Of a stretch of DNA of 29,172 nucleotides, positions 15,709 to 29,172 are shown one piece after another. Under the pieces are notes generated by a model. The model saw only the letters and a program-made list of their open reading frames with translations. It had not been told where the DNA came from and made no database searches. Numbering within the stretch: position 1 is the first letter of the stretch; each line of letters opens with the position of its first letter. A program made the translations under genes and the position numbers. Source of the DNA: a virus; the IMG/VR virus record IMGVR_UViG_3300048044_000047, positions 1-29,172 of that record; one strand, given 5' to 3'.

Positions 15709-17400
15709 TTATATACTACGTGGCTCTTCATAAAGAATTTCTCTATTAGAAAAATCAATAGGGATAGCATCGGGGTTTTCACCTGGATAATGAATAATAC
15801 CACGCATACTTAACCAAATAAACGCTTGTGCCATAGAATCGACTAAATCTTGTCCTTTACCTCGTGGGCATCTTAAACATGCTTCTACAAATTCATCACC
15901 ATAACTATATCTACGCGTAAATTCACTTTCAGGAGCCAGAGGAATCCATACAATACCTGATTCAATAATCATACTCGCAAACTTTGTGCGTGCTAATTTC
16001 CGTGTAGGACTGTCACCAGCACCATCTTTAAAACCATGGGTTCTTGGATTAAAGCCAATAACATTAGTTATTCCACCTAACTTTAAATCTTGAATTAAAG
16101 GCACACCATTCATTGCTTCCTCAATTAAGATAAGCGTAGGTTTAGGACCTTGCCTTAACGGCCTATCTGGATCATCCGTATAATAATTATGAGCACAATT
16201 AACCATCATACGTCGTAAACCTGGGTTTTCTAATTTACCTGACCAAGAATTTAATAAAATAAGATTAGGATTATTATTTTCATCTGTGAATACGCCCCAA
16301 TTTGTAACGGCTGAATCGCACGCTTCTTCCTTTATACTTAATGCAGTATCCCAACTTTGGATAACATATTCACACTTTGGCATACCCCTTTGTTTCCACC
16401 ATCTAAACCAATCTTCTTTAATTAAGTTACCACCAGAAGGTGTTGGGTCTTGTTGCATTTGAGCCGAGATATTAATGGCAGTTCCATAGATAGATTTTCT
16501 ACGTCTAGTTTCATTTTCTCCATACATATTAGGCCAGATTAACTCGCCTTTTTCTTTTCTTGGATCACTCCAAACTTTCTTTGTTCCAGGCAATACAATT
16601 GTACGACAATGTCGTTTAGGGTCGTACTCCCAAGGAAGCATTAAATGAATAATAGAAGGGTCGTTTTTAGCCAAGAAATGGCCTGTAGCATCGAATTGAT
16701 GCAGTCTTTGTTGAATAATAATTAAAGCACCACGACGAGATTCTGAGATTCTATCAATACGAATACCAACCGTAGCATCTAATACTAGATTTACATATTC
16801 ACGTTGGGTAGCGTACATCACGTCATTTTGTGCATTAACATCATCCGCCATGATAAAGTTTGCGCCTTCACCCATAGAAGAACTATGGATAGATTTAATA
16901 AACTTTTCACCGCCAGCCGTATTACCGTATCGTTCCTTACGACTTAACTCACGTAGTAATTGTACCTTATGACCCCATAGTCTTTGATACCATTCCGATT
17001 GAATTAATTGTTTACACTTTAAAGCGTCACGTTCAGAAAGATCACCGCTACTCGAAATGTTTAAAAACTTAAGATGTGGCTCACGTGCCCATACCCAAGC
17101 AGGAAAGAATATATTGCATATGGTTGATTTCATGCAACGAGATGGAATGTTAATAAGAAGAGTCTCTATATATCCATGATAAGCAGCTTCAAGATGTTCT
17201 GAAATAACCTTAATGTGCCAGCCATCGACATATTGAAAACCTGGATGCACATATCTCCATGCAGCTTTGCAAAAATCATATAGACTGTTTTCAAGACTTT
17301 CTCGTAATTCTATTTCTTGAGGAGTTAAAGCATTAATATTGGCTGCAAACATCAATTGCAACCCTTGCGTTTGTTTTAATCTTAACTTAGATACTGCCAT
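15709..17400 (-). CDS. terL: Terminase large subunit
   Basis: The 563-residue product is the ATP-driven DNA-packaging motor with a headful-type nuclease. Residues 84-93 read NIPSRCMKST, a Walker A variant in which the usual Gly before Lys is Met, related to the PPRSMKS form seen in some terminases. Walker B is at 182-187 (FIMADD). The ATPase-coupling region is near 226-233 (ALIIIQQR). The RNase H-like nuclease domain supplies acidic residues at Asp351 (SWDTA), Glu427/428 (LIEEA) and Asp518/521 (QDLVDSMAQA). The start has AGGA nine bases upstream. It is preceded by tRNA-Gln and followed by the portal. No canonical small terminase gene lies beside it. Confidence 0.95.
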   Translation of the reverse strand: MAVSKLRLKQTQGLQLMFAANINALTPQEIELRESLENSLYDFCKAAWRYVHPGFQYVDGWHIKVISEHLEAAYHGYIETLLINIPSRCMKSTICNIFFPAWVWAREPHLKFLNISSSGDLSERDALKCKQLIQSEWYQRLWGHKVQLLRELSRKERYGNTAGGEKFIKSIHSSSMGEGANFIMADDVNAQNDVMYATQREYVNLVLDATVGIRIDRISESRRGALIIIQQRLHQFDATGHFLAKNDPSIIHLMLPWEYDPKRHCRTIVLPGTKKVWSDPRKEKGELIWPNMYGENETRRRKSIYGTAINISAQMQQDPTPSGGNLIKEDWFRWWKQRGMPKCEYVIQSWDTALSIKEEACDSAVTNWGVFTDENNNPNLILLNSWSGKLENPGLRRMMVNCAHNYYTDDPDRPLRQGPKPTLILIEEAMNGVPLIQDLKLGGITNVIGFNPRTHGFKDGAGDSPTRKLARTKFASMIIESGIVWIPLAPESEFTRRYSYGDEFVEACLRCPRGKGQDLVDSMAQAFIWLSMRGIIHYPGENPDAIPIDFSNREILYEEPRSI

Positions 17401-24813: not shown

Positions 24814-25755
24814 ATGATAACACCTCAACAAAAAGAAGAAAGACGTAAAGGCATAGGCGGTAGCGATGTAGCAGCAATCTTTGGCTTTACCAAAAAATAC
24901 AAAACACCTCTCCAAGTTTATCTTGATAAATTAGGATTGTCTGAGGATGAAAACGAGACGAACATCGCCGCCGAAGAGGGAACGTATTTAGAGCCTTTAG
25001 TGTTAGACCTCTTTGAAAAAGCTATGAATACAAAACTTGTTCTTAGAGATAATGTACCGACATTAATCGATTCAGAGTTTCCCTATATGCGAGCAAACAT
25101 AGACGGTTTAATGTCTGACGGCTCTATTGTAGAGGCTAAAACTGTAACTTGTTATAATCGTAAGAAATGGGGCGAACCTATGACGGGTGAAATTCCTATT
25201 AAGGTAGCTTACCAATGCGCTTACTACACCTCTATTTATAAGGCTACGCAGGTTTATATACCCGTTCTCTTTAGAGGTAGCTCAGAGTTTCAAATATACG
25301 TGTATACGCCTAATTATGCGTTTGAGAAAGCCATTAGAGAAAGAGTTACGGATTTTTGGGAAAATCATATTTTAAAACAGATCCCCCCGCAACCGCTTAA
25401 CTACGATGATTTGCTTGTTTTAAACCCTTGCATCTCAGAAGATAGTAGCGTTGGATTAGGGGAAACTGTGCGCGATCATTTTGATAGATTCGTCTCATTA
25501 AAAGCTCAAATAAAAGAATTAGAAAATGAGATGGAAGACCATAAATTTGAAATTGAAAAATTCATGAGTGATCGCGAGTTTTTACTTGATGAAAAGGGCG
25601 AAAGAATAGCTAGTTTTAAATATAATACAGATTCATTTAGACTTGATACCGCAGCGCTTAAAAAGAACGACCCAATTATTTATAACCTCTACAAAAAACC
25701 ATCAAAACCCACTCGTGTTTTTAAACTATTAAACCAAGGAAAGAAAAATGACTGA
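24814..25755 (+). CDS. YqaJ-family 5'-3' exonuclease (lambda Exo type)
   Basis: The 313-residue product is a PD-(D/E)XK recombination exonuclease. Conserved parts are RRKGIGGSDVAAIFG (residues 11-24), GTYLEPLVLDLFE (56-68), ANIDGLM with catalytic Asp97, VEAKT with Glu107 and Lys109 (106-110) and VAYQCAYY with Gln134. A Leu/Lys/Glu helical region (SLKAQIKELENEMEDHKFEI) follows. It would degrade one strand of double-stranded ends to give a 3' overhang for the annealing protein encoded next, with which it overlaps by eight bases. Length and motif order are usual for the family. Confidence 0.92.
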   Translation: MITPQQKEERRKGIGGSDVAAIFGFTKKYKTPLQVYLDKLGLSEDENETNIAAEEGTYLEPLVLDLFEKAMNTKLVLRDNVPTLIDSEFPYMRANIDGLMSDGSIVEAKTVTCYNRKKWGEPMTGEIPIKVAYQCAYYTSIYKATQVYIPVLFRGSSEFQIYVYTPNYAFEKAIRERVTDFWENHILKQIPPQPLNYDDLLVLNPCISEDSSVGLGETVRDHFDRFVSLKAQIKELENEMEDHKFEIEKFMSDREFLLDEKGERIASFKYNTDSFRLDTAALKKNDPIIYNLYKKPSKPTRVFKLLNQGKKND

Positions 25756-26410
25756 GGAAATTAAAGAAAAGATGCCTGTCAAAAACATAAGTACGCAACT
25801 CCTTTCGTGTAACTTTGACAAAATTGAAAAGGATAGTCTAAACACTCATTTTAAGCAAACTTATGCAAGTATAGAAAGTATATTTGGTGTGGTTATGCCA
25901 GAGTTAAAGAGAAATGGAATCCTTTTTAGCTGCGCGATGGATCCTAGCGCTCTAGATGTGTTGATAATGACTCTTGAACACATAGAAAGCGGGACGTCCA
26001 AATCTACCCCTATAAAACTGTTAAATACGTCCGATATGCAAAAATGGGGTGCTTCCCTCACTTACGCGACAAGGCGGGGTATCATGCTCATGCTAGGATT
26101 GACCGCAGGTATAGAGCCAGAAATGGACGGCAATGATACATTAGATGAAAAGAAAATTCAGAGTTCACAGAGTAAACTTCAGCCTCAATATCAGAGTCGC
26201 CCTGTCATTGATGTAAAGCAATTTAAAAAAGATCTTTTAGAATTATGGAATCTTAAGAAAGATGTAGCACTAGCAATCGACAAAGATAGAGCCGTAAGAG
26301 TTAATGATTTTGCTATGCATAACTTTATGAAGCTTAATGAAGATGAAACTCTCATGGAATTGCCCGTAGATATGTTAGTTTCAATTCAAAAATGGTTAAA
26401 AGAACTATAA
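25748..26410 (+). CDS. erf: ERF-family single-strand annealing protein
   Basis: The 220-residue product fits the ERF superfamily: KDSLNTHFKQTYASIESIF (residues about 28-46, like 'KDs.n.hFk..YAsle.v'), an LEHIESGTSK strand-turn (76-85) and the signature KWGASLTYATRRGIMLMLGL (99-118), followed by an acidic EPEMDGND. The C-terminus (residues about 160-220) is a helical region. ERF proteins anneal complementary single strands in phage recombination and pair with a nuclease, here the overlapping YqaJ gene. An SSB lies about 1 kb downstream. Confidence 0.88.
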   Translation: MTEEIKEKMPVKNISTQLLSCNFDKIEKDSLNTHFKQTYASIESIFGVVMPELKRNGILFSCAMDPSALDVLIMTLEHIESGTSKSTPIKLLNTSDMQKWGASLTYATRRGIMLMLGLTAGIEPEMDGNDTLDEKKIQSSQSKLQPQYQSRPVIDVKQFKKDLLELWNLKKDVALAIDKDRAVRVNDFAMHNFMKLNEDETLMELPVDMLVSIQKWLKEL

Positions 26411-26424
26411 GAAGAAATTAAAAA

Positions 26425-26574
26425 ATGAAAAATCAAGAAAACTCGACTTTAAGCATTCTTCATTTTACCCTAGGTGTTTGTTTAGCGTGTTTAATAATGC
26501 TGAATTGTAATTTAAAAAACATAAGTGACCGTTTAGAAATTTTAGAAGCATGCTTAAAAAAAACACGATATTAA
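26425..26574 (+). CDS. Tiny membrane or lipoprotein-like ORF (49 aa)
   Basis: A 49-residue frame has a polar start (MKNQENSTLSILHF), a span TLGVCLACLIMLN ending in Cys, and a helical tail (SDRLEILEACLKK). The end of the span (LNCNLK) resembles IVNCSLVK in the plus-strand ORF at 21012, suggesting related small membrane proteins. The ribosome-binding site GAAGAAAT is weak. It follows the ERF gene by 14 bp. The function is unknown. Confidence 0.5.
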   Translation: MKNQENSTLSILHFTLGVCLACLIMLNCNLKNISDRLEILEACLKKTRY

Positions 26575-26594
26575 TATAAAGGAGATTTTTTAAA

Positions 26595-26879
26595 TTGGAT
26601 AAGACGTTGGAAATTTTTATTAAAGAAATGGTTGAAGCTTGCGAGAAAGATTACCTCGATAACATAGACAAAGTTATGGATGTGGTGGATTTTTTAGGGA
26701 CAACCCTTGCTAAACAAAACATAGAAAACCGTACGGTCATTATGGCATTGATGAACCTCTGTGTCGGCACAATACTACGGCATGACGTAAGTATAGAAAA
26801 ATTAGAAATTTTGAGGGATATTCACCTTGATGTTATGAAAAATAGATTTAATTTAGCGATTGAACTCAAAACACAATGA
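26595..26879 (+). CDS. Small hypothetical protein with TTG start
   Basis: The 94-residue product starts with TTG at 26595, ten bases after a strong AAAGGAG, which fixes the start. The sequence MDKTLEIFIKEMVEACEKDY, then VMDVVDFLGTTLAKQN and TVIMALMNLCVGTILRHD, is helical with regular hydrophobic spacing. No motif is recognised. Its stop overlaps the next tiny membrane ORF by an ATGA junction. Confidence 0.6.
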   Translation: MDKTLEIFIKEMVEACEKDYLDNIDKVMDVVDFLGTTLAKQNIENRTVIMALMNLCVGTILRHDVSIEKLEILRDIHLDVMKNRFNLAIELKTQ

Positions 26880-26965
26880 TGAATGATGAATTATTTTCAA
26901 CTTTATTGATATTTATTGGTTCAATATTTATAATACTGTTTATTAATGTTTTTATTAATCATTAA
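26876..26965 (+). CDS. Tiny membrane protein (29 aa)
   Basis: A 29-residue frame begins MMNDELFSTLLIFIGSIFII and is one hydrophobic span with an acidic N-terminal edge and few charged residues. Its ATG overlaps the previous stop (ATGA), so it may be translated by coupling, as no separate ribosome-binding site is seen. The same features occur in other tiny ORFs here. A chance ORF is possible in such A+T-rich sequence. Confidence 0.4.
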   Translation: MMNDELFSTLLIFIGSIFIILFINVFINH

Positions 26966-26979
26966 ATAAGGGATGAATT

Positions 26980-27246
26980 TTGAATAAACTTGTATTTACA
27001 GACATGATAAAACAATCTCTCAAAGAGAAAAAAAAACATCCGCCTTATAAGATGAAAAATGAAGAAATTCGTAACTTAAATGTAAAAATAGGTGAATCCC
27101 TTTATGAGAAGATTAAAGCCTTTACCATAAGAAATGATATTAATATTGCACCATTTATACGCGCTATGGTGGTGGCGATTATAGAACAAGATGAAAAAGA
27201 AAGAAGAGAGAAAAAAGCTAAAGATGAAATCAACCCATTACAGTAG
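26980..27246 (+). CDS. Ribbon-helix-helix-like protein, TTG start
   Basis: The 88-residue product starts with TTG at 26980, after AAGGG at a good distance. Residues about 31-72 fit a ribbon-helix-helix (Arc/CopG-like) layout: a short strand RNLNVKIGESLYEKIKAF, a turn NDINIA and a helix PFIRAMVVAIIEQDE. The ends are Lys/Glu-rich. Such proteins dimerise and bind operator DNA with the strand, so this could regulate the early promoters; the direct repeat at 22639-22662 is a conceivable target. It is a layout match only. Confidence 0.5.
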   Translation: MNKLVFTDMIKQSLKEKKKHPPYKMKNEEIRNLNVKIGESLYEKIKAFTIRNDINIAPFIRAMVVAIIEQDEKERREKKAKDEINPLQ

Positions 27247-27538
27247 ATTAAATCATATTGCAGATAATATTTTAAAACATTACCAAACTTTATGGTTAGA
27301 AAAGTTTAATTCATGTCAATGCAATGACAAGCCTGAAGCATGCCTTAAAATAATTATACGTGATACTAGAATTGGAAATGAAACTTATCAAAGTTATACA
27401 AAGAGCATTTTAAAACCGTTTATTTTAAACCATATTATTGATTATAGCATGGCTTCGAAAGAACTTTTAGATATCCTTATTAAAAAGCTAATGTATACCC
27501 TTAACATACAAGGAAAAATAAATGTCGATATCAATTAA
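27224..27538 (+). CDS. Hypothetical protein upstream of ssb
   Basis: The product is 104 residues from the ATG at 27224 (MKSTHYSRLNHIADNILKHY). An earlier ATG at 27191 would add 11 Lys/Glu-rich residues overlapping the previous gene further. It is helical, with a CQCNDKPEACLKIIIRD segment holding three Cys and a Leu/Ile-rich end. The three Cys could bind metal but lack a fourth ligand pattern. It overlaps the SSB start by 17 bases, so the two are coupled. No family is recognised. Confidence 0.55.
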   Translation: MKSTHYSRLNHIADNILKHYQTLWLEKFNSCQCNDKPEACLKIIIRDTRIGNETYQSYTKSILKPFILNHIIDYSMASKELLDILIKKLMYTLNIQGKINVDIN

Positions 27539-27977
27539 CGAAGTTGTTTTAATGGGGAATTTGGGCAGCGACCCAGAAATTAAAGTATTTAAAGACGGAA
27601 GTAAGGTTGCAAATTTCAACCTCGCAACCTCTGAAAGTTGGAAAGATAAACAAACAGGTGAAAAAAAGTCTAAAACCTTTTGGCATCGCATCGTTGTAAA
27701 GAATCAAAACCTTATAGATATTATCGAACGATTTGTAGCTAAAGGCTCTAAGATTTACATTAGAGGCTCATTAGAAACAAGAGAATACGAGGACAATAAC
27801 AAAGCCAAGCAATATATCACAGAGGTAGTCATGGGCTATTCGGCTGTTTTAAAAATGTTAGGCTCTAAGAATGAAAATAAAAACGATTTAAATGACTCTG
27901 ATTTTAATCAAGACAAATCTAACTATAAAAAACAATCCCAAGATTTATCATTTATTGATGATGAAGTCCCATTTTAG
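27522..27977 (+). CDS. ssb: Single-stranded DNA-binding protein
   Basis: The 151-residue product is a bacterial-type SSB: N-terminal OB fold (residues about 4-105) with EVVLMGNLGSDPEIKVFKDG, FNLATSESWKD and FWHRIVV, a polar linker, and the acidic tip DDEVPF that recruits partner proteins. It protects single strands made by the YqaJ exonuclease and during replication. ATSESWKD..TGE..-K..WHR resembles alphaproteobacterial SSBs, a hint about host. AAGGAA precedes the start. A hairpin spans its stop codon. Confidence 0.93.
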   Translation: MSISINEVVLMGNLGSDPEIKVFKDGSKVANFNLATSESWKDKQTGEKKSKTFWHRIVVKNQNLIDIIERFVAKGSKIYIRGSLETREYEDNNKAKQYITEVVMGYSAVLKMLGSKNENKNDLNDSDFNQDKSNYKKQSQDLSFIDDEVPF

Positions 27978-28002
27978 AAGGGGGCGTTAACCCTCTCTAA
28001 AA
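27972..28002 (+). other. Hairpin across the ssb stop codon
   Basis: TTTTAGA-AGGG pairs with CCCT-C-TCTAAAA around an 8-nt loop (stem 11 pairs, one bulged C). It contains the ssb stop codon and is not followed by a T-tract, so it is not a standard terminator. It may stabilise the mRNA 3' end or adjust downstream translation. Confidence 0.45.
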
Positions 28003-28027
28003 TACAAAACAATGAAAAGGAAAAAAA

Positions 28028-28354
28028 ATGTCTACACAAAATACACCTACACACCAAGATATTTACTTAGGACAATATGTTATCGTTCGTTCTTACGATA
28101 GCGGTGTTCATTTTGGAATTGTAAAAACCTATGACCCTACAACACGTAATGTAACATTAACAGACAGTCGTAGATTATGGTCATGGAGAGAATTCACGCT
28201 TTCAGAACTTTCACAAAATGGAATGTCTGACGATCGCGCAAAAGTATCTCAAAAGATTCCAGAGATGACAGTCATGAATGTAATAGAGCTTATCCCTACA
28301 AGTGAAAAAGCAGAGATAAATCTAAGAGAATATAAAACATTCATACCAAGCTAA
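28028..28354 (+). CDS. Small conserved-looking phage protein, unknown function
   Basis: The 108-residue product has GQYVIVRSYDSGVHFGIVKT (residues about 15-34), then DSRRLWSWREFTLSEL, and a C-terminal IPEMTVMNVIELIPTSEKAE. The order 'YVIVRTYSAGVH.G......V.L...RRLW.W...FTLS' and 'E.IEIIP.SE.A' recalls, from memory, a widespread uncharacterised phage family (I believe DUF6948, unverified). It forms a small beta-rich domain. The gene follows ssb and precedes the Gly-X cassette array by 6 bp. AAAAGGAAAAAAA lies upstream of the ATG. Confidence 0.7.
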   Translation: MSTQNTPTHQDIYLGQYVIVRSYDSGVHFGIVKTYDPTTRNVTLTDSRRLWSWREFTLSELSQNGMSDDRAKVSQKIPEMTVMNVIELIPTSEKAEINLREYKTFIPS

Positions 28355-28359
28355 CCATC

Positions 28360-28422
28360 GTTAATACGTTAATTATTAATAGACCTGGCTGGGGCTCTGG
28401 CGATGGCGATGGAAAGGATTAA
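28360..28422 (+). pseudogene. Degenerate first Gly-X cassette (start codon lost)
   Basis: Aligned with the later cassettes, the codons for V-N-T-L-I-I-N-R-P-G-W-G-S-G match M-D-E-L-I-I-D-S-R-G-F-G-S-G. The ATG of the others is replaced by GTT at 28360-28362 and the repeat body is only a few units long. It keeps the terminal GGA AAG GAT TAA, which provides the ribosome-binding site for the next cassette. This looks like a decayed copy kept at the array start, perhaps only as a leader. Confidence 0.6.
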
Positions 28423-28427
28423 ACATC

Positions 28428-28556
28428 ATGGATGAACTGATTATCGATAGCCGTGGCTTTGGCTCTGGTTATGGCGATGGCGATGGCGATGGCTGGGGTT
28501 CTGGCAATGGTTCTGGTTATGGCGATGGCGATGGCGATGGCGATGGAAAGGATTAA
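28428..28556 (+). CDS. Gly-X repeat microprotein, cassette 2 (42 aa)
   Basis: The product is MDELIIDSRGFGSGYG followed by a strict Gly-X repeat (X mostly Asp, Ser, Tyr, Trp, Asn), ending GDGKD. The leader resembles the other cassettes (MDELI plus a charged residue, Ser and Gly). The AAAGGAT ribosome-binding site sits in the last codons of the degenerate first copy. No fold is obvious; Gly-Asp/Ser/Tyr repeats would be flexible and acidic. The function is unknown. Confidence 0.65.
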   Translation: MDELIIDSRGFGSGYGDGDGDGWGSGNGSGYGDGDGDGDGKD

Positions 28557-28561
28557 ACATT

Positions 28562-28774
28562 ATGGATGAATTGATTAAAAATAGTTCTGGCGATGGCAAT
28601 GGCTCTGGTTATGGTTCTGGCTGGGGCTCTGGTTATGGCGATGGCGATGGCCATGGCGATGGCGATGGCAATGGCTCTGGTTATGGTTCTGGCAATGGCT
28701 CTGGTTATGGCGATGGCGATGGCGATGGCGATGGCGATGGGTGGGGCTCTGGTTATGGCGATGGAGAGGATTAA
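28562..28774 (+). CDS. Gly-X repeat microprotein, cassette 3 (70 aa)
   Basis: The product has the MDELIKNSSG leader and about 29 Gly-X units containing Asp, Ser, Tyr, Asn, Trp and His, ending GYGDGED. It is the longest complete cassette. The stop TAA is five bases before the next ATG, and the ribosome-binding site GAGAGGAT lies in the final codons. Reading frames 2 and 3 of the same DNA are also open, giving Met-Ala-rich sequence, but only this frame has the conserved leader and ribosome-binding site. Confidence 0.7.
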   Translation: MDELIKNSSGDGNGSGYGSGWGSGYGDGDGHGDGDGNGSGYGSGNGSGYGDGDGDGDGDGWGSGYGDGED

Positions 28775-28779
28775 ACATT

Positions 28780-28920
28780 ATGGATGAATTAATTAGAGAT
28801 AGCCGTGGCTATGGCGATGGTTATGGCGATGGCGATGGCGATGGCTCTGGCGATGGCGATGGCGATGGCTCTGGCACTGGCTATGGTGATGGCGATGGCT
28901 CTGGCTATGGAGAGGATTAA
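28780..28920 (+). CDS. Gly-X repeat microprotein, cassette 4 (46 aa)
   Basis: The product has the MDELIRDSRG leader followed by Gly-X units dominated by Asp, then Ser, Tyr and one Thr, ending GYGED. The same GAGAGGATTAA-ACAT junction leads to the next cassette. Asp at nearly every second position makes this copy the most acidic and could favour divalent-cation binding, but no RTX-type GGxGxDxxx nonapeptide is present. Confidence 0.68.
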   Translation: MDELIRDSRGYGDGYGDGDGDGSGDGDGDGSGTGYGDGDGSGYGED

Positions 28921-28925
28921 ACATC

Positions 28926-29172
28926 ATGGATGAATTGATTAGAGATAGTTCTGGCTTTGGCTCTGGTTATGGCTCTGGCACTGGCAATGGCTATGGTGAT
29001 GGCTTTGGTGATGGCTGGGGCGAAGGCGATGGCGATGGTTGTGGTGATGGCTCTGGCTCTGGTTATGGCTGGGGCGATGGCGATGGCTCTGGCTCTGGCT
29101 ATGGCGAAGGCTCTGGCCATGGCGATGGATATGGCTTTGGAAATGGCTCTGTGATGGCTATGGCTGTGGAAA
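28926..29172 (+). CDS. Gly-X repeat microprotein, cassette 5 (partial, apparent frame slip)
   Basis: The product begins MDELIRDSSGFGSGYG and has over 30 Gly-X units with Tyr, Phe, Trp, Glu, His and one Cys, more aromatic than the other copies. At about 29149-29152 the pattern GGC TCT GG(T) GAT appears as GGCTCTGTGATGG, one base short, so the frame leaves the Gly-X register (into VMAMAVE) just before the window ends. This is a real frameshift or a sequence error. The 3' end is not in the window. Confidence 0.6.
   Translation, partial: MDELIRDSSGFGSGYGSGTGNGYGDGFGDGWGEGDGDGCGDGSGSGYGWGDGDGSGSGYGEGSGHGDGYGFGNGSVMAMAVE

Follow-up and report, generated by a model that had tools for sequence, protein, structure and literature searches.

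The tandem array of Gly-X genes at the end of the window, by which we mean the whole stretch of DNA analysed here (a complete IMG/VR record of 29,172 bases), has a regular partner, and this partner is a gene of the DUF6948 family (PF22253) or a diverged homologue of it, not ssb. In the proposed module of two phage genes the array would represent the second gene in multiplied form; the product of this gene consists of a short leader and a body of strictly alternating glycine and a variable residue X, and the chain is usually acidic. Membership of DUF6948 is clear for the gene preceding the array, with 77 bits against a curated cut-off of 27 bits, and the Pfam name gives no function. The Gly-X partner, the predicted Sm-like fold and a diverged second family are additions to DUF6948 from the present analysis.

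By reading of the window sequence, the ATG starts of the array are placed at 28428, 28562, 28780 and 28926 (Table 1). They are preceded by a remnant that begins five bases past the DUF6948 stop codon and reads V-N-T-L-I-I-N-R-P-G-W-G-S-G-D-G-D-G-K-D-stop. Cassettes end with TAA, followed by exactly five bases (ACATC or ACATT) and the next ATG, and this spacing as well as the lengths of the complete products, 42, 70 and 46 residues, had been stated correctly in the initial annotation. A 50.7 kb contig, IMGVR_UViG_3300048041_000073, which may derive from the same or a related sample, is identical to the window along 6,145 aligned bases (0 mismatches) and extends the array to six ATG starts with products of 42, 70, 46, 94 (frameshifted), 32 and 138 aa. 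TAA plus five bases precedes all six starts; before start 5 this TAA lies in the lost Gly-X register. In both contigs cassette 4 switches near position 29150 from the Gly-X register to a Met-Ala one, so that the copy at 28926 looks damaged. Of the "at least five head-to-tail copies" that had been counted, three stand as complete and a fourth is cut by the contig end and frameshifted, while the fifth is the start-less remnant. Clear Shine-Dalgarno-like stretches, GGAAAGGA or GGAGAGGA, lie ahead of starts 1–4, following the same design at cassettes 2–4 as at cassette 1, and weaker ones (GGGGA and GAGAA) lie ahead of starts 5 and 6 in the longer contig. The clear ones double as the last codons (G-K/E-D-stop) of the preceding copy, which fits translation of the Gly-X frame. 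An assembly artefact is disfavoured, as the second contig agrees over its aligned length and the gene is present in complete phage genomes.

Table 1. Array features and neighbouring genes in the window.
Feature	Positions	Strand	Basis
YqaJ/RecE-like exonuclease, neighbour	24814..25755	+	PF09588, E 2.7e-21
ERF annealing protein, neighbour	25748..26410	+	PF04404, E 8.1e-8
ssb, early-operon neighbour	27522..27977	+	PF00436, E 2.1e-28
DUF6948 gene (PF22253), predicted Sm/LSm-like fold	28028..28354	+	PF22253, E 1.3e-21; AF2 pLDDT 93.2
Remnant cassette 0, recognisable leader and body, without start codon	28360..28422	+	Sequence reading
Shine-Dalgarno-like GGAAAGGA and stop, common to copy 0 and cassette 1	28411..28422	+	Sequence reading
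Gly-X cassette 1, 42 aa, leader MDELIIDSRG	28428..28556	+	Sequence reading
Gly-X cassette 2, 70 aa, leader MDELIKNSSG	28562..28774	+	Sequence reading
Gly-X cassette 3, 46 aa, leader MDELIRDSRG	28780..28920	+	Sequence reading
Gly-X cassette 4, leader MDELIRDSSG, cut by contig end	28926..29172	+	Sequence reading

Elsewhere in the window, the minus strand carries a long tail-fibre-like open frame with internal repeats of the STVTPTTSTQLITKAYGDATY type (2-2533) and a terminase-like gene (15712-17400), for which the closest named relatives listed are the Roseobacter phages CRP-901/902 with 32-33% identity.

The pairing was assessed from both sides. When viral contigs were seeded by the DUF6948 protein alone, a Gly-X ORF, scored at seven or more alternating glycines, lay directly downstream on the same strand in 60 of 67 loci, a set that includes the window's own phage and some near-duplicates; the remaining 7 contigs end at most 48 nt past DUF6948 or inside it. 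At a threshold of six glycines these loci give 61 pairs, corresponding to 54 distinct DUF6948 proteins. With the loci seeded by Gly-X DNA (GX-seeded) included, 157 DUF6948 ORFs were available. A Gly-X body follows within 400 nt downstream in 147 of them and lies within 1.5 kb in 4 (one upstream), the other 6 stand at a contig end, and none of the 157 was scored as lacking a Gly-X body. Conversely, seeding by Gly-X DNA alone returned at least 119 viral loci. Among the matches listed, 85 combine a scored Gly-X ORF with 700 nt or more of upstream sequence, and in 77 of these 85 a DUF6948 gene (61) or a second-family gene (16) stands beside the array, within 650 nt. Of the other 8 listed, 3 have a partner within 3 kb and 5 have neither (L020, L036, L042, L097, L123). 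The 32 listed loci with less than 700 nt upstream comprise 8 with DUF6948, 3 with the second family, 1 with a partner within 3 kb and 20 with none, and 2 further listed loci are without a scored Gly-X ORF.

Gly-X stretches were carried by 182 of 191 loci, most of which were retrieved for that very feature, and the fair test is therefore the 60 of 67 DUF6948-seeded loci against a background seeded by ssb. Among 80 ssb-seeded loci (999 kb), 2 scored for Gly-X: the window's phage itself and L230, which on inspection by eye is a false positive. The DUF6948/Gly-X pair is absent from the 79 other loci. The initial annotation had placed the array after ssb and a small gene and named recurrence beside ssb as support; as a regular partner ssb is rejected by this background. 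A background search seeded by YqaJ returned only the window's phage, and in the limited flanks of 203 loci recombination genes are found near some loci only (YqaJ 31, ERF 24, SSB 16). In narrow scans of cellular genomes, one conserved motif turned up a single MAG contig, which also has a Gly-X ORF downstream; 1 of 296 genomes of the MAG's phylum (the seed itself) and 0 of 14 control genomes gave a hit. By these scans the family looks rare in cellular genomes.

A kept leader with a varying body, as proposed for the window, holds among copies or close relatives in what is a recurrent phage gene family. The MDELI leader itself was not recovered from independent phages, as a DNA pattern search of viral contigs matched only the window-identical contig; leaders in the DUF6948-seeded loci are unlike MDELI and have the shape M-x(2-4)-K-x-[FW] in 38 of 58. 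The expectation that cassettes recur in other genomes was borne out, since tandem Gly-X genes are found in other lineages too: two or more Gly-X ORFs on one strand are present in 18 of 117 GX-seeded loci with a scored ORF among the matches listed, of which at least L097 and L099 look like one phage. Own leaders, and sometimes trailers as well, are kept across the tandem cassettes of L075, L095, L099, L031, L040, L046, L104 and L107; examples of such kept segments are MIWGFLRPLVWSK-like (five times), MPELARELEVLAV-like (four times) and a VFARRADDPLQALTTLS-like trailer (four times). In other loci (L007, L026, L028, L070, L089, L112, L195, L196; two of them from human faeces) the Gly-X stretch opens a longer protein. 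These longer proteins share a conserved '..VY.IDG...WHHxLTGSCxxGR..' domain, which matches no Pfam family over the cut-off. In L008 a similar WHHxLTGSCxxGR domain is encoded by a separate gene immediately upstream of the Sm-like gene, and in L020 the Gly-X part comes after an additional N-terminal domain.

The DUF6948 protein or its diverged homologue is in all likelihood a small protein with an Sm/LSm-like fold, as judged from structure prediction. The AlphaFold2 model of DUF6948, computed with 61 relatives in the alignment, all 61 of which match PF22253, has a pLDDT of 93.2 and shows the Sm arrangement of an N-terminal helix and a curved five-stranded sheet. In Foldseek searches against the PDB the best 50 rows are all Sm/LSm, spliceosomal/snRNP or Gemin entries, and so are all 50 rows of the VIA alignment, with Z 8.5 for 6ppq_A (1.8 A, 67 residues) and Z 8.4 for 1i8f_C; the tool itself describes values of Z around 8 as borderline. 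At the sequence level, Pfam matches of the relatives are weak, SM-ATX with E 0.0063 in 3 of 61 members and LSM with E 0.13 in one, and a merged profile of DUF6948 and the second family has no match among PDB sequences at E<=10. Since sequence profiles fall short of Sm significance, we claim an Sm-like fold and not membership of the superfamily. R48, R49, W51 and W53 are invariant in 19 DUF6948 relatives; among 61 relatives only R48 and W53 of these are kept at 90% or more, and across the 58 merged sequences the Trp is the one residue of the Arg/Trp patch that still reaches this level.

A comparison by hhalign (probability 93.7, E 1.9e-7) shows the second upstream family to be a homologue of DUF6948, and the PF22253 model misses 10 of the 11 members of this second family. 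On iteration the second-family profile merged with DUF6948; the rows among the matches listed looked like one family, with drift being possible in principle. Seeding by the second family gave 9 loci, its own contig included, with a scored Gly-X ORF in 7 (upstream in L292); of the other 2, one contig ends inside the Gly-X start and one has a short Gly-X stretch below the threshold. The AlphaFold model of this family has a pLDDT of 83.3, and its best VIA row is 6ppq_A with Z 8.7, followed by 3by7_C with Z 8.3, a solved Sm-like protein from an uncultured source. 3BY7 is of cyanophage origin. The rows of the second family that do not belong to the Sm set come from designed TIP60 particles and a single NatC entry.

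The two genes are closely joined. Among 138 non-redundant pairs, taking the last Met before the body as the Gly-X start, a start with a leader of less than 40 aa was placed in 118, and 103 of these starts overlap the DUF6948 stop. In 117 of 147 pairs the distance from this stop to the first body glycine is at most 50 nt (median 16 nt), and no fusion of DUF6948 with a Gly-X body occurs in the 157 DUF6948 ORFs. From the observed overlap we infer that the two genes are very probably translated as a coupled pair. In the window the first intact cassette begins 73 nt past DUF6948, and the start-less remnant occupies the usual place of the first cassette.

The X positions of the bodies are occupied by Tyr (28%), Asp (27%) and Ser (23%), then Asn, Ala and others, the composition spanning everything past the first body glycine and thus including some C-terminal extensions. 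The mean net charge is -10.9 for Gly-X bodies versus +0.8 for DUF6948; individual bodies span -42 to 0, some being hardly acidic, and the charge of DUF6948 does not correlate with the share of Asp (rho -0.05) or of aromatics (rho -0.01) in the partner body. By its composition the Gly-X chain would almost certainly be disordered. Bodies shuffle fast while the leaders and the partner stay: Ymer-genus phages keep the leader MSKLIKPE[KR]YG, with whole products of 53-89 aa, and in six phages compared, with Abuela (here identical to Ymer) and Setonix excluded, DUF6948 is 92-100% identical, against 30-68% identity for the X strings, which often resemble each other no more than shuffles do (median z 1.15). 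An identical DUF6948 is shared by Ymer and Amona, which differ in their Gly-X bodies. Database searches with the bodies found little. A tblastn search against phages gave no match, presumably because the low-complexity filter masks the body. PHROG and Pfam matches are weak or under the cut-off and look compositional, the best Pfam match, TrAA12-like (PF22807), reaching 29.1 bits at a cut-off of 30.9 and covering profile residues 378-434 of 463 only. An NCBIfam search returned nothing useful.

Named phages carry the pair as well. DUF6948 matches 16 phage records, of which 15 were inspected and all have an adjacent Gly-X stretch; the 16th is a duplicate of PhiPLPE. The inspected phages are seven Pectobacterium phages (Ymer genus), Dickeya phage Setonix, Iodobacter phage PhiPLPE, Chlorobiaceae phage CV-1-33, Vibrio phage IKEMa6-1, two Manatee Spring genomes, one of which (ctRVW222) has the Gly-X ORF upstream of DUF6948, and two gut contigs, in which a short Gly-X stretch begins a longer protein. 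Annotated Ymer-genus records list the Gly-X product as a hypothetical protein, and in other records the gene is unannotated or placed in the wrong (Met-Ala) frame (NC_011142 ~46000-46264, MT192033 10278-10523, MW202478 1505-2077): the PhiPLPE record has no CDS there, the CV-1-33 record annotates the Met-Ala frame, and the ctRVW222 record prefixes DUF6948 with it. In Ymer-genus phages an annotated tail fibre gene lies on the opposite strand directly upstream of DUF6948 (L192 4591-5724, L202 91-1224) and separates it from the recombination genes.

It is probable that the DUF6948-type protein and the Gly-X chain act together. The Sm-like protein would most likely form a nucleic-acid-binding ring, and the Gly-X chain, anchored through its leader, would serve as a detached acidic-aromatic tail, competing with nucleic acid or gating it at the conserved Arg/Trp surface, or would crowd rings together. 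On this view nothing but register and composition would matter, so that bodies may shuffle and cassettes multiply, as in the window. This account starts from the observed pairing, gene overlap, predicted fold, composition and shuffling, to which the ring, its binding, the contact between leader and patch, and the competition or gating would be added. Its model is Hfq, for which excerpts of published work describe an acidic tail that binds to the basic Sm core in competition with nucleic acid, in vitro also as a separate peptide (PMC5606850), and, in Acinetobacter Hfq, Gly-rich tail repeats that matter (PMC11617691). The phage pair would work alike, with an Sm-type core and an acidic, Gly-rich, fast-evolving disordered chain, and the bodies are on average of acidic, Gly-rich composition; however, the Hfq tail is covalently attached, whereas the phage chain is separate, strictly alternating and sometimes present in several copies. 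The lack of any fusion in the 157 DUF6948 ORFs counts against a mere tail, which would sometimes be expected to be fused, and the missing charge correlation, the nearly uncharged bodies and the thinning of the Arg/Trp patch with distance also speak against a tail model. As a whole, a Sm-type ring working jointly with a separate acidic-aromatic disordered chain is the best explanation we can offer, and it is a tentative one. Somewhat more doubtful is its fullest form, a widespread and so far unrecognised phage nucleic-acid chaperone in which a Sm-type ring would be served in trans by interchangeable, shuffling Gly-X tails, translated in a set relation to the ring, some of them multiplied (up to six starts here) and missed or mis-framed by annotation.

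Other readings place the function in the chain, in the nucleic acid or nowhere. A Tyr/Asp/Ser/Gly sticker-and-spacer chain could serve as a condensate scaffold that gathers the Sm-like protein, nucleic acid and perhaps SSB or recombinase in a phage compartment, several cassettes raising valency and dose; low complexity, evenly spaced aromatics, a free residue order with kept composition and multiplication in several lineages speak for it. Condensates are not known to need strict alternation, however, and whole products down to 22-43 aa (L150, L171, L176, L152) are short for a scaffold; we consider it unlikely. The chain might instead be an anti-host decoy whose acidic body blocks a host defence or a nuclease by mimicking nucleic acid, DUF6948 serving as its chaperone or co-inhibitor. 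The acidic mean charge, the rapid diversification, the copy number and the recombination-gene neighbourhood in the window agree with this, but some bodies are near net charge 0, PADLOC gave weak matches only (Cas5fv 0.017, Csm2 0.0055), and a partner beside 77 of 85 arrays among the GX-seeded matches listed is unlike accessory anti-defence genes that come and go; we regard a decoy as quite improbable.

The codons of the bodies lead to a further possibility, that the Sm-like protein binds the GGC-NNY hexamer repeat as RNA or DNA (for example in autoregulation or as a decoy RNA), with the peptide as a by-product; RNA is the typical ligand of Sm-like folds. Glycine is encoded by GGC in 82% of cases in bodies versus 42% in long frames of the same 115 loci, serine by TCC/TCT in 91%, and AGY makes up 2.9% of body serine codons versus 37% in the background of 89 loci, being zero in 83 of the 89, whereas DUF6948 codon usage resembles the background. 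Synonymous positions of the Gly-X genes are thus not neutral, and RNA or DNA may bear some of the constraint. The bias could, however, equally come from high expression or hexamer duplication as from an RNA role, and two loci (L140, L164) keep the same Gly-X design with Ser entirely AGY. His (1%) and Cys (0.6%) are rare at X although both are one transition from Tyr codons, which points to selection on the peptide, and start, stop and Shine-Dalgarno-like sites all serve the Gly-X frame. A conserved RNA structure is rejected: folding z is -4.5 to -4.1 in three window segments and +1.2 to +3.2 in three segments from other phages, which are less stable than the shuffle mean, and Rfam has no match in window 26000-29172. 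We hold a nucleic-acid element of this kind to be improbable. Neutral hexamer slippage in a dispensable spacer past DUF6948, translated by accident, would account for bodies that vary freely in length and order and for an array holding a remnant and a frameshifted copy. It is very hard to reconcile with Gly-X in all 60 DUF6948-seeded loci that have enough downstream DNA and beside a homologue missed by the Pfam model in 10 of 11 members, with an X alphabet that stays restricted across phages of very different GC, or with leaders kept within lineages and overlapping starts, and we give it hardly any weight.

Both upstream families share their predicted fold with Sm/LSm proteins including 3BY7 and differ from them in that the merged profile matches no PDB sequence and the partner is a separate Gly-X chain. 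FUS-type Gly/Tyr-rich low-complexity proteins also have regular aromatics among Gly, Ser and Asp; the phage chains differ by their strict two-residue register and tiny size, and no homology is claimed. The initial annotation had suspected an undescribed system, and the Gly-X family was indeed not found in the literature searched. DUF6948 is not named in that literature (bioRxiv and most subscription journals lie outside its scope), six typical body strings are absent from it, a broader search gave no relevant title on the pair among the matches listed, and in the excerpted text of the Ymer genus paper the word 'glycine' is absent. The DUF6948/Gly-X pair was likewise not found in the literature searched.

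With these findings a local oddity turns into a phage module of two genes that keeps recurring and whose pairing is strong and can be tested, and DUF6948 gains a predicted fold and a partner. The module may also explain why contigs break at the Gly-X array and why its genes are missed or mis-framed in published phages. Moreover, the module is a natural case of a presumably disordered chain that is held constant in register and composition and left free in order and length, so that what matters in low-complexity proteins would become directly testable with Gly-X genes.
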